The position numbers and the translations under genes are program-made. DNA of 20,971 bases from a virus. The notes beneath the pieces were generated by a model, which was not told the origin of the DNA, did no database searches, and was given only the letters and a program-made list of their open reading frames with translations. This document shows, one piece after another, positions 1 to 4,679 of this stretch; the stretch's first letter is position 1, and every line of letters begins with the position of its first letter. The DNA lies in IMG/VR virus record IMGVR_UViG_3300034072_001307, positions 1 to 20,971 of that record; one strand, given 5' to 3'.

Positions 1-3000
1 ATCCACCCCTCACCAGCCACCAAAGCAATCGGCTCAGCGCGTTTTTTCAGGATCACAATGTCGGTAACAACAGACGTCCCCGCATATTGCTCAAATGCAC
101 CAGACGGCAAGCGAAACGCCGCGACCAACTCCGCTTTTTTCGCCATTTCTGTGCGAATATGCGCTGATTTTTTGTCGAGACTCCCTTTGCTCGTGATACC
201 AATAACCAGCCCGCCCGGGCGAACTTGGTCCAATGTTTTCAGGAAAAAGTAATCGTGCAACATCGGCGTGAAACGGTTATAGCGCCGGTCTGCAATAGGG
301 GTATTTTCGAAAGGCCAGTTACCGATGATCAAATCATAGAAGTTATCCGGCGTGTTCGATTCCTGATAACCTTTAATCTGGATATTCGCGTCAGGGTACA
401 GCTTTTGTGCAATGCCACCGGTTAAAGGGTCCAGCTCAATCCCGGCCAGTTGGCTACGGTCTTTGAGGTCTTTTGGCATCATGGCAAAAAAGTTACCGAC
501 ACCGAGCGACGGCTCCAACACCCGCCCGCCCTGAAACCCCATCCGGCGTACCATATCCCACATAGCCAGCACTGTCGGCGGGTCCGTATAGTGCGAGTTC
601 GTGATCGAGCGCTGCAAACCTTCCCATTCAGCTTGCCCTAAATGTTCACGCAACCACGCATCACGTTCTTCCCAACCAGCTTTGGGGTTTTTCCGCGCCC
701 AAGTCCCCTGGAACAGCTCTTGGCCAAAAGAACCCCAGCCACTGTACGCGGCTAATACGGCTTGTTCTTCAGCCGTAGGCAGGCGATTTTCGTCGCGTAA
801 CAGGTTGTAGAGTTCGATTGCAGCTTTGTTTCGTTCAAAGCGTTTGACGGGAGTGCCGCCAACCACTGCCAGCGGGTCATTCAGATGGAAATTGCCTACG
901 CCCGGGTTCGCGGGTGATACGGCCTCGGGATCTTTCGGAGTTACGCGGCTGCTGGTGCTTCCAGCATCAGGTGATTTCTTTCGGCTTGCTCTCGGGCGTC
1001 GGTTACTGGCATCCCCTGGGCTATCAGTTGGTCCATTTCCTGAAACATCCGTGCTTGCATCACGAATGCTGTTTTGTCCAGAATCCCCGCCAGTTCCAGT
1101 ATTTTCACCATCTTTGGACTGTCTGCCTTCCAATTCTGCAGGATCTGCTTGTGCAGCACCTGATTGTGCAGGTGATTTTCGTCCTCGACCAGTTGTTGAT
1201 ACTCGGTCTTGATCTGGCTCACCCAACTCTGTGGTAGTTTCATCGGTAGTTCCTTGCGTCGCTTCGGTTAAGATAGCATCGATATCGGTTTTACGGACAT
1301 CTTTTGGATTGTCCAGCGCATCGGCCAGTTCATCGGTAATACCGTACTTTTCAGGGTTTGCACCGATGGCACCATAGGCTTCTTTTAAAAATGGTTTTAC
1401 ATCGTCATCCGCAATTCCGACCGCCCGGGTTGTCGTCATCACATCACGCACCCACTGAGCAAACTTAACTGCTCCTTCCGCAATCGATAACGCACCCACT
1501 TCAGCCACTGCCAACATCACTTCGGGATCAATCCCGCTGTTTAGTTGGCCTTTGCGTGATTTAATTAGCGTCGCCAGCTTTTCAGCTGCAGCAAGTTTTT
1601 TATCGCTAATGGCTTGAGCTGCAGTATCCAGCTTATTTGGCGCTGGGGCTTTCGTCTGTGGCGCCGGTTCGGCTTTTTCTTTCGGGCGTTTAATCGCTTC
1701 CCGCTTTTCGTTGAGTGCAACCTGCTTTTCATACTTATCAAGCTGAGTTTGCACCCGGCCAGCATCAAAACTGGCGTCTTGCTCTGGCGGCAATACGGTT
1801 TCAATACGCTGTGCTAAGTCAGCATCATGGACTCTGGCACGGGTGGCCAGTTCATTCTGGCGCTGGTAGGCTACAGTAAACAGATCAGGTTTTTCGGCTT
1901 CAGGGGCCGCGCTTAACTGCTCGTTTTCTTTACGGCGTTCGTCTCGCTGTACAATGCCAGGTAATGCTTTGGTCAGCTCGTCCAAACGGGCCTTACCAAA
2001 CACCCACCCCTCACCGCCTTTCAGGCGCGGGTTAAACGTCCCTTTCAGGTTTTTCAGCTGGTCCCTGTAGGCTTTGGTATCACCCCGCACCACAACCGAT
2101 TTTTCACTGTACGGCTCGATGCGCAGTTGGCCAAAATCAGCCAGTACGTTTTGCGGGGCATCATCAAAGCGAGTCAATGGGGCTTTGGTGTCACCGGTTT
2201 TCAGCCAGTCCTTAAATTCATCGACCGACATTTCTGCCACCGGGCCCACGTTCCAGCCGGCGCTATAGTTGCGAGAATAGGTTTCAATGGCATCATCAAG
2301 ATCATTGGCGCCAAACACCACCTTATGCTCGTCAAAGCTGCCATCGGCTTTGTACTGGTCCACCACAAACACTTTCTGACTGGCCGGGTTCTGGCCAATG
2401 AAAACGTCCACATGGTCCCCGTCCGCGCCTTCAGTGCGTTTGATATAGCCGTAATGGTCCTGCATATCGACAGACCATTCTTTGCCCTTGGCATCAGTGC
2501 CACTGCGCTTAGAGCCGGCTGGGTTCTCGATGGCAATATCTAAGCCATGTATCCGGGTATGGCCTTTACGATAATTGCCGGCTTCCTTTTGGGCTGCAGT
2601 GGGTTCTGGTAAGTCATTTTGCGTTGATAGCGCAGCTTCGGCAGCGGCGCTGTCTATGGCCGCTTTGATTTCATTATCGTTTTCTGAGTTACCCACGGTT
2701 TTTGTGGATAACTTTTCCCACGGCATCAGCTCTAATGCCTGGTCATCATCAATACCAAAGGTATCTTTGAGCATTTGCTTTGTGACTTTGCCGCGCTGGT
2801 CAATGGGTAAGCTGCGGACATATGTACTGGCTTCTTTATACGCATCCACGGTGTCTACTTCTGCTGCAGGGGCTGTTTCCGCTACCGCGTCGACATTCAT
2901 TTGATCAGCACTGAGGGCCGTTTCAAAATCAGCTGCTTGCTGTGCATAGGCCAGGCTATCAATATCAGCCTGTGCATCGGCATCCGACGGGATATTCCCG

Positions 3001-4679
3001 ATCGGCATTTCTTCACTGAGCTGATCAGCGATTGCAGGCTGTTGTTCAGCATTGGCCACAGGCTGGCTTTGTTGCTGCAGGTAGTTTGCTATCTGCGTTT
3101 CTGCTTTTGGCCGGAACTCCGGATCAGCCAGGTAACGACTGGCCACCGTCAGCGCTAAGGTTGTTTTCGCCGGGTTCTGCTCCACATAGGTTTTTAGCTG
3201 CTGCGCCATGCCTTCATCTTGCCGGCCAATCACGCTGATCAGCGACTGCACATCTTGCTGCTCTTGGGCGTCTGGCTCTGCGGTTGCAGCAGGGTCACGC
3301 ATATACTCGGCCATCCGCGCCACGGTACGGCGGGCAAAGTCCGGGCTGGCCATAAAGTTATCCAGTACAGACACTGCCGCCTTGGCTTTCTCAGGCTCCG
3401 CTAAAGCGATTTCCCCAATCACATCCACGACATGCGGGTGCGTTTTGCTAACTTCCGTCGCCTTTTGCGCAAAAGCACCCATCGGATCTTGCCCCGGGTT
3501 TAGCGGCTCATACAACTCCGGGTCTTCCTGAATGTCTGGCAGCACAGACGCCGCTGGGGCAGCTTCAGCTACTGGCGCCGGCGGCTGTTCTTTCTTCAGT
3601 GCGCCCTGGGCTCTTTGATACAACGCACCGGCGCCTGCAGTTGCGGCGCCCATGCCGGCACCCATTACGCCCTCATTGAGCGCTGCAGCGGTCATGCCTT
3701 CATCTAAGGCCTGCGTCGGGTCAATGTTTTCCTGAACTACTTGGTTTTTGGCGTATTGCTCGATACCGCCTTGTGCGGCCTCGGTGGCAAACTCAGCACC
3801 TACACCGGCGCCTTTTGGCATTGCGCCGCTGAAAATCCGCGTCAGCGCAGCAGTACCCAGACCGCCGACCAGCAGGTTACTGGTCAGCAATGCCGGGTTC
3901 GTTTTTACAGCAGTCCGGCTAATCTCGGCCAACTCACTGCGCGATTGCGCCAACAATTCTTCGGCTGGCATGCCGGGGTTCATCTGCTTGTTCTGTTTTA
4001 CCAGCCGCACAAACTCGGGTGAATCGACAAGCTCGTCAAAGTCCATCGATTCAACTTCGGCGCCAATATCAATTGCGCCAAGGCCACCGCTGACGGCATG
4101 GCCAGCAGCACCAAACGCCAGCGTATCGCCGGCGTAGCCACTGATCATGTCGGCCTTATCACCAAACTGCTTTTTCATAAACGACTGCGTAGCGGCCGCT
4201 GCAGCTTCATCAGCAAGCACTTTGTCGCCAGTCTGCGCCAACATCCGTTTGCGGGCCTCTTTGGCCACAGACGTTACAGCCATTTTGCCGGCCTTAAGCG
4301 CTCCGCCGCCCATCAAAATGTCTGCGTTTAAGCCCAGCGTATGGCCAAACTGCATCGCAATGGCTCGCGGATCTGTCCACGCGTCCCCCATGGTGACGGT
4401 GCCAGGTGTATTTTCATCAAAGAAGGTTTTCTGCATGGCCTGCTGGCCCACTGGGGAGATGGTGCGCAGCTGCTCGGCCGCACCTTCTTGCCCCCAGTCC
4501 CGGACAGAATCAAGCCCGACCATTTCGCCAATCCCGGCCGCGCCGTCATATAGGCCTTTTTGTGTCGCATCAACAACGTCTGCCAATGCACCTTGAGGCG
4601 GCAGCGGGTTACGGGCTTGTTGTTCAGCAAGTTTTTGTTGGCGGTAGGTCTCAAGTGCCTGTAAATCTAGTTTGCTCAT
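1..4679 (-). CDS. Giant polyvalent virion protein with pyrophosphatase-like and DarB-like methylase domains (3' end outside window)
   Basis: The frame is open from ATG at 4679 to the left edge (1559 codons, no stop), so the C-terminus is missing. Domains seen: residues about 1-360 are Ala/Gly-rich with hydrophobic stretches (near 262-350), as in ejected internal proteins; about 695-835 resemble an inorganic pyrophosphatase, with YGYI at 743-746 and Asp 753, 755 and 758 in a DGDHVDV motif; a short FNPRLKGGEGW motif lies at 882-892; a segment beginning SGID at 1048 is typical of phage polyvalent proteins; a low-complexity linker covers about 1140-1250; a DarB-like N6-adenine methylase follows, with motif I LEPSLGVGNF at 1388-1397 and catalytic-type NWPF at 1454-1457. 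A helicase domain often follows in such proteins but would lie outside. Inferred role: ejected with phage DNA to modify or shield it from restriction. The start follows the previous stop by 3 bases; the only AGGA is 12 bases upstream, so translational coupling is likely. Confidence 0.88.
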   Translation of the reverse strand, partial: MSKLDLQALETYRQQKLAEQQARNPLPPQGALADVVDATQKGLYDGAAGIGEMVGLDSVRDWGQEGAAEQLRTISPVGQQAMQKTFFDENTPGTVTMGDAWTDPRAIAMQFGHTLGLNADILMGGGALKAGKMAVTSVAKEARKRMLAQTGDKVLADEAAAAATQSFMKKQFGDKADMISGYAGDTLAFGAAGHAVSGGLGAIDIGAEVESMDFDELVDSPEFVRLVKQNKQMNPGMPAEELLAQSRSELAEISRTAVKTNPALLTSNLLVGGLGTAALTRIFSGAMPKGAGVGAEFATEAAQGGIEQYAKNQVVQENIDPTQALDEGMTAAALNEGVMGAGMGAATAGAGALYQRAQGALKKEQPPAPVAEAAPAASVLPDIQEDPELYEPLNPGQDPMGAFAQKATEVSKTHPHVVDVIGEIALAEPEKAKAAVSVLDNFMASPDFARRTVARMAEYMRDPAATAEPDAQEQQDVQSLISVIGRQDEGMAQQLKTYVEQNPAKTTLALTVASRYLADPEFRPKAETQIANYLQQQSQPVANAEQQPAIADQLSEEMPIGNIPSDADAQADIDSLAYAQQAADFETALSADQMNVDAVAETAPAAEVDTVDAYKEASTYVRSLPIDQRGKVTKQMLKDTFGIDDDQALELMPWEKLSTKTVGNSENDNEIKAAIDSAAAEAALSTQNDLPEPTAAQKEAGNYRKGHTRIHGLDIAIENPAGSKRSGTDAKGKEWSVDMQDHYGYIKRTEGADGDHVDVFIGQNPASQKVFVVDQYKADGSFDEHKVVFGANDLDDAIETYSRNYSAGWNVGPVAEMSVDEFKDWLKTGDTKAPLTRFDDAPQNVLADFGQLRIEPYSEKSVVVRGDTKAYRDQLKNLKGTFNPRLKGGEGWVFGKARLDELTKALPGIVQRDERRKENEQLSAAPEAEKPDLFTVAYQRQNELATRARVHDADLAQRIETVLPPEQDASFDAGRVQTQLDKYEKQVALNEKREAIKRPKEKAEPAPQTKAPAPNKLDTAAQAISDKKLAAAEKLATLIKSRKGQLNSGIDPEVMLAVAEVGALSIAEGAVKFAQWVRDVMTTTRAVGIADDDVKPFLKEAYGAIGANPEKYGITDELADALDNPKDVRKTDIDAILTEATQGTTDETTTELGEPDQDRVSTTGRGRKSPAQSGAAQADPAELEGRQSKDGENTGTGGDSGQNSIRDASTDVSGNGPTDSPGDASNRRPRASRKKSPDAGSTSSRVTPKDPEAVSPANPGVGNFHLNDPLAVVGGTPVKRFERNKAAIELYNLLRDENRLPTAEEQAVLAAYSGWGSFGQELFQGTWARKNPKAGWEERDAWLREHLGQAEWEGLQRSITNSHYTDPPTVLAMWDMVRRMGFQGGRVLEPSLGVGNFFAMMPKDLKDRSQLAGIELDPLTGGIAQKLYPDANIQIKGYQESNTPDNFYDLIIGNWPFENTPIADRRYNRFTPMLHDYFFLKTLDQVRPGGLVIGITSKGSLDKKSAHIRTEMAKKAELVAAFRLPSGAFEQYAGTSVVTDIVILKKRAEPIALVAGEGW
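941..1243 (-). CDS. Nested overlapping gene, 100-residue predicted helical protein
   Basis: This complete ATG-to-TAA frame lies wholly inside the giant polyvalent gene, on the same strand but shifted by +1. AAGGA at 1255-1251 sits 7 bases before the ATG, an ideal ribosome-binding site. Ten of its eleven leucines use CTG, and the protein has a balanced, helix-friendly composition: acidic, Gln/Met/Leu-rich and amphipathic, with segments such as ILELAGILDKTAFVMQARMF and a C-terminal Ala tail. It has no signal peptide, membrane segment or cysteine. Over the same bases the host frame (residues about 1146-1247) is Gly/Ser/Asp/Thr-rich and uses rare codons (CGA, AGA, GGA, TCA), unlike its flanks. 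I do not recognise the family and assign no function. A role linked to the polyvalent protein (partner, regulator or small anti-defence factor) is only a guess from position. Fairly sure that it is a real gene. Confidence 0.72.
   Translation of the reverse strand: MKLPQSWVSQIKTEYQQLVEDENHLHNQVLHKQILQNWKADSPKMVKILELAGILDKTAFVMQARMFQEMDQLIAQGMPVTDAREQAERNHLMLEAPAAA
1251..1255 (-). promoter_or_regulatory. Ribosome-binding site of the nested gene
   Basis: AAGGA reads on the minus strand 7 bases before the ATG at 1243. It matters because it supports independent internal initiation within the giant gene, at a site where the giant gene itself needs no such signal. Confidence 0.65.

Follow-up and report, generated by a model that had tools for sequence, protein, structure and literature searches.

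The closest described counterparts of the carrier gene studied here are P1 DarB and the DarB-like giants, with which it appears to share MTase and SNF2-type helicase regions (PMC5512222). Virions of the Bcep22-like phage JC1 contain its DarB-like giant, which was represented by 51 unique peptides (PMC9144972). Small helpers are required by P1 DarB, among them Ulx, a 17-kDa head protein that "aids DarB localization" into the head and whose ORF adjoins darB (PMC9024508), and Bcep22-like phages have been reported without known homologues of the P1 helpers (PMC9144972). Nested phage genes are already known as a kind, and Rz1 of the phage spanins, which lies wholly inside Rz, is a recognised class (PMC9144972). 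A further system for comparison is TnpV (PF14198) of Tn4451-type elements, a protein of similar small size for which a role in excision was postulated from homology with lambda Xis (PMC3158075).

The locus analysed here differs from each of these. No nested homologue was detectable in P1 darB. Ulx provides a functional precedent, but it is a separate gene. Rz1 is a lysis lipoprotein in a short gene, whereas here a folded helical protein is predicted in the linker of a gene of ~14 kb. The family of nested proteins found in our window (the whole 20,971-base stretch of a virus record, hereafter the window) has no direct match to TnpV, and some TnpV genes are free-standing. In the limited set of open-access papers searched, we found no description of the nested family, of its almost constant presence at one place in a single type of giant, or of the parallel with TnpV, and a term search of the polyvalent-protein paper (PMC5512222) returned no overlapping or nested gene.

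A small gene within the linker of a DarB-like giant

The giant ORF of the window matched phrog_10089 (DarB-like antirestriction; E 4.8e-149) in PHROGs. The carrier was expected to have an MTase fused to an SNF2-type helicase, which was supported by this match and by helicase matches in a relative (L044), as the window stops before the helicase. On these matches, the carrier is predicted to be a DarB-like polyvalent protein with MTase and SNF2-type helicase regions; the domain names LPD36 and MTase follow PMC5512222. A linker separates the N-terminal part of the giant from the MTase/helicase part, and its bases also encode the small ORF (Table 1).

A nested gene should be complete and lie wholly within another ORF, on the same strand and in a different frame, and both frames should be under selection. 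The positional requirements are met. The first-pass annotation had placed a 100-codon frame correctly, in the +1 phase relative to the giant and with AAGGA ahead of its ATG, without stating the strand, which is now fixed as minus. Its compositional claims also hold, as CTG encodes 10 of the 11 leucine codons of the nested frame and the giant frame opposite is rich in Gly, Ser, Asp, Thr and Arg. Opposite the nested frame, CGA, AGA, GGA and TCA together account for 18 of 101 codons of the giant frame; elsewhere they are scarce (15 of 1458).

The length of the nested frame alone is unremarkable, since 85,092 codons of sampled giants contain 31 other +1 ORFs that begin with ATG and reach 95 aa or more. 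They come from the part of the L037-L108 giants that follows the nested gene. What raises the nested frame above chance is the presence of homologues in the same frame and place, the avoidance of stops in the giant frame, a reversed codon-position pattern and the start signals.

Table 1 Coordinates of the features discussed (positions without a locus label refer to the window)
Feature	Coordinates	Strand	Remarks
Giant DarB-like polyvalent ORF	3..4679	minus (4679->3)	first 1559 codons inside the window; continues past its left end
InPase domain PF18823 of the giant	2199..2594	minus	E 4.1e-55; lies N-terminal to the linker
Linker of the giant, low in complexity (Gly/Ser/Asp/Thr/Arg)	938..1246	minus	same bases as the nested gene
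Start of the MTase region of the giant	3..893	minus	by position, LPD36 + MTase part of DarB-like proteins
Nested gene	941..1243	minus (1243->941)	100 codons + stop, +1 relative to the giant ORF; ATG is the complement of 1241-1243, stop at 943-941
Shine-Dalgarno-like AAGGA	1251..1255	minus	7 nt before the nested ATG
Upstream sequence available in L049	L049:1-335		335 nt, to the contig end
+1 ORF of Pseudomonas phage 8P	L116:4591-4905		in the MTase-proximal slot
Plasmid counterpart of the 8P ORF	L125:1774-2064		Cupriavidus plasmid
TnpV nested in methylase/helicase-type ORF	L123:3397-3735
TnpV nested in methylase/helicase-type ORF	L127:8001-8345
TnpV nested in methylase/helicase-type ORF	L128:8001-8348
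TnpV nested in methylase/helicase-type ORF	L129:7992-8345

Conservation among close relatives

Relatives of the nested protein were collected by a single-sequence scan of IMG/VR (5 loci), tblastn (2 P. aeruginosa phages, USP_18 and USP_25) and a profile scan (22 viral loci, including the first 5, and 7 bacterial loci). In all of these 31 loci the nested frame is in +1, and in each of the loci read the long giant frame remains open across it and is never closed. The homologues range from 94% through 48–53% down to ~30% identity with frame and place constant, and an alignment of 26 sequences has ten invariant residues and the motif TDAREQAERxHLMLEPE. No plasmid-encoded copy of the nested protein was detected by tblastn; for the window's own family, free-standing copies were looked for only within the loci returned by the scans.

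Because the nested protein itself served as the query for these loci, they give no measure of how often the giant occurs without it. IMG/VR was therefore scanned with the giant's own MTase region, via its homologue in L002, as an unbiased anchor. A match to the nested profile was detected in 70 of 72 giants, with strand and +1 phase unchanged and a position just upstream of the MTase domain, all with E <1e-14 after iteration of the profile on those same matches. In one of the other two (L105) the upstream region is rearranged. The remaining one (L049) has no nested frame and a Pro/Lys/Ala-rich linker in the short upstream sequence available; it groups within a clade of giants that bear the nested gene (support 0.975), and its condition thus looks like loss or replacement. 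The nested gene is near-universal at one slot in close relatives of the giant (70 of 71 assessable). The linker of L049 represents a natural single-frame control.

Selection on both reading frames

Selection was evaluated for 66 distinct nested genes, which are related and thus do not constitute 66 independent trials. Start signals scored at least 5.5 in 80% of them and in 11% of control +1 windows, on a combined start/Shine-Dalgarno (SD) scale where 5.5 corresponds, for example, to an ATG plus a 4-mer SD; the start codon was picked by the same score in both sets.

The wobble base is normally the fastest codon position. Summed by hand over 14 close pairs, differences at giant codon positions 1, 2 and 3 were 382, 237 and 183 within the overlap, and 302, 211 and 1205 in the downstream flank (13 pairs, with one pair excluded due to a misaligned flank). 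The third base of the giant is the slowest within the overlap because it is the second base of the nested codon, and substitutions concentrate on nested third positions, which are giant first positions. The giant frame is open in all 66 cases, compared with 7.9 expected when the nested codons are shuffled synonymously; for the giant frame of the window itself, stop avoidance has p = 0.006. None of the 66 genes leaves the third frame open. Codon positions and stop avoidance thus meet the remaining requirement for a nested gene, and we infer from them that both frames are selected, with amino-acid selection acting mainly on the nested frame.

The outcomes that the first-pass annotation had said would refute it were not observed: homologues are conserved in the +1 frame, no relative has stops within the nested frame (L049 lacks the gene altogether), and the variation is not of the single-frame type. 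Its core inference, that the nested frame encodes the selected protein, with the giant frame serving as a linker that has to remain open, is supported by these comparisons. A defence or regulatory role for the product, as that annotation suggested, stays a possibility. The giant frame is not free, however, since stops are strongly avoided and its disordered composition is kept.

More distant DarB-like phages

The comparison was extended to 12 named phages whose DarB-like giants are more distantly related. All but PBC5 (11 of 12) have a +1 ORF in the MTase-proximal slot. In seven it is a recognisable homologue of the nested protein (PEp14, SopranoGao, VvAW1, POI1126, Itty13, Atu_ph08 and Mwe-JY07; E 1e-5 to 1e-9), and in four (BcepIL02, 8P, vB_PalP_Y7 and BKO1-TP3) it has no recognisable sequence relation to the family. 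The ORF of BcepIL02 is conserved in DC1, with AAGGAGG upstream of the nested ATG in both phages, and that of 8P has 43% identity to a small annotated plasmid gene. This plasmid counterpart is itself in +1 of a methylase frame. The ORFs of Y7 and BKO1-TP3, for which there is no evidence of conservation, could be due to chance. In the Sinorhizobium phage PBC5 (L117; AF448724.1), the upstream orf33 continues in frame into the family sequence at its C-terminus, and the MTase part is read in a different frame; PBC5 is represented by a single old record, in which an indel or an error of sequencing is possible. No such nested gene is annotated in the corresponding regions of four relatives (BcepIL02, DC1, PEp14 and SopranoGao).

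Predicted structure and relation to TnpV

AlphaFold predicted five helices for the nested product (pLDDT 84.5, pTM 0.73). Foldseek returned no significant match to this predicted fold in PDB or BFVD, the best BFVD match (Q8W6J4_2, E 0.26) being possibly the PBC5 fusion, and the family has no sequence match in PDB. Only scattered weak matches were obtained for the window family in Pfam and PHROGs. A "holin" PHROG identity (E 0.005, only 2 of 26 members) was not taken seriously. Separately, PHROG 938 carries the label endolysin, and its C-terminal end gives a match to the nested family. The nested protein is conserved and has no curated family of its own.

The nested proteins of PEp14, SopranoGao and others form a bridging group. 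Profile comparison linked the window family to this group (prob 93, E 2.5e-7) and the group to TnpV (E 0.011), whereas the window family compared directly with TnpV gave nothing (0.43). The Pfam TnpV profile was matched by four of eight bridging-group members (best E 4.3e-4, 20.7 bits at best), below its cut-off of 27 bits, and by none of the window family. The BcepIL02/DC1 nested protein has only weak similarity to the bridging group or TnpV.

If TnpV occupied the same genomic slot, it would lie in +1 inside a methylase/helicase giant. This was the case in four of eight hand-picked TnpV loci (one Cohnella, two Subdoligranulum and one Monoglobus; Firmicutes plasmids), with a low-complexity, hydrophilic stretch opposite TnpV in each, and TnpV is free-standing in the other four. 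In the annotated records L123 and L129, the plasmid gene table has TnpV and no CDS for the giant. A one-sequence search of IMG/VR detected no TnpV relatives. PF14198 was absent from six bacterial genomes with the nested family and also from controls, so that this comparison was uninformative. The profile evidence for a relation between the nested family and TnpV is suggestive. Since free-standing TnpV genes exist, the word overprinted, used in the first-pass annotation, may reverse the order of events: the small gene is perhaps the older and the linker of the giant grew over it, which remains unresolved.

Discussion

At the level of sequence, the comparisons establish dual coding, i.e., a disordered linker of the giant and a separate small gene with its own putative start codon and Shine-Dalgarno site. 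That the nested gene is real, translated and selected we consider nearly certain, in the absence of expression data. The explanation that we favour overall, and think probably correct, is a selected, internally initiated nested gene whose product is a partner of the giant, with expression and function being inferred. The nested protein would be translated from the mRNA of the giant by internal initiation and would act as a dedicated partner of its MTase-helicase part. It might bind this part during its synthesis as a helper, assist packaging or folding to keep the giant fit for packaging and ejection, or restrain its DNA activity until the next cell is reached. Nesting would ensure that both proteins are co-produced and co-inherited.

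The partner role is proposed because of the near-universal linkage across host groups, the constant position just upstream of the MTase domain, the precedent of P1, and the presence of the giant in JC1 virions. It has no biochemical data behind it and is a tentative proposal, falling a little short of an even chance. The gene was dispensable at least once, as indicated by L049 (with only 335 nt upstream to judge from), the TnpV family can act alone in elements without an adjacent giant, P1 DarB has no detectable nested homologue, and in our literature search the nested product was not encountered as a component of virions.

The nested frame might be no more than an artefact of composition, open in +1 because the sequence is of low complexity and lacking any product, and chance long +1 ORFs do exist in these giants. 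The comparative data already contradict this reading, leaving it virtually no room, given residues conserved at ~30% identity, a confident predicted fold, the reversed codon-position signature and stop avoidance. Alternatively, a +1 frameshift could yield a truncated giant ending in a helical domain, with no separate protein, as would fit PBC5, where the upstream part reads straight into the nested frame (orf33, C-terminal match). However, the nested frame is open just 3–6 nt before its start in several loci, which leaves little space for a shift site, the ATG/SD signals are strongly enriched, and the single PBC5 sequence may contain an indel; we regard frameshifting as highly improbable.

Other alternatives accept the gene and differ on its function. 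A DNA-binding or regulatory protein resembling Xis, a role once postulated for the TnpV of Tn4451, is improbable: the Pfam matches of the bridging group favour it, but they remain under the cut-off and vanish in direct comparison with the window family, no solved DNA-binding fold was matched, and a late virion gene is an ill-suited carrier for an excision factor. A more serious possibility, though still an unlikely one, is that the nested gene encodes an independent, diffusible late protein (anti-defence, regulatory or host-takeover) for which the linker is a mere carrier. TnpV relatives that stand free beside conjugation genes with no giant adjacent are in line with this, as are at least two unrelated-looking types of nested ORF in the slot (8P; BcepIL02/DC1). 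Linkage to one giant type in nearly all assessable cases nevertheless exceeds what a free agent would need, and the gene keeps almost invariably to its place immediately ahead of the MTase domain.

Extending the partner explanation, methylase-helicase giants of phages and conjugative elements in several bacterial phyla may have a standing nested slot upstream of the MTase that holds a TnpV-like or analogous internally initiated partner, so that the giant would carry its own helper out of frame in a disordered linker. This generalisation is plausible at best, and we hold it with slightly more doubt than the partner role itself.

The nested gene is an old, widespread and hidden gene of well-sequenced phages (Bcep22-like, Lastavirus, Pavtokvirus and others) and is almost never annotated; at loci of this kind, automatic annotation may drop one of the two genes, be it the giant or the small one. 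It provides a natural case of a disordered linker hosting a predicted folded protein out of frame. TnpV, usually taken as a transposon gene, is suggested as a possible nested companion of methylase-helicase giants, and the nested protein is a testable candidate for the missing helper of DarB-like anti-restriction giants.
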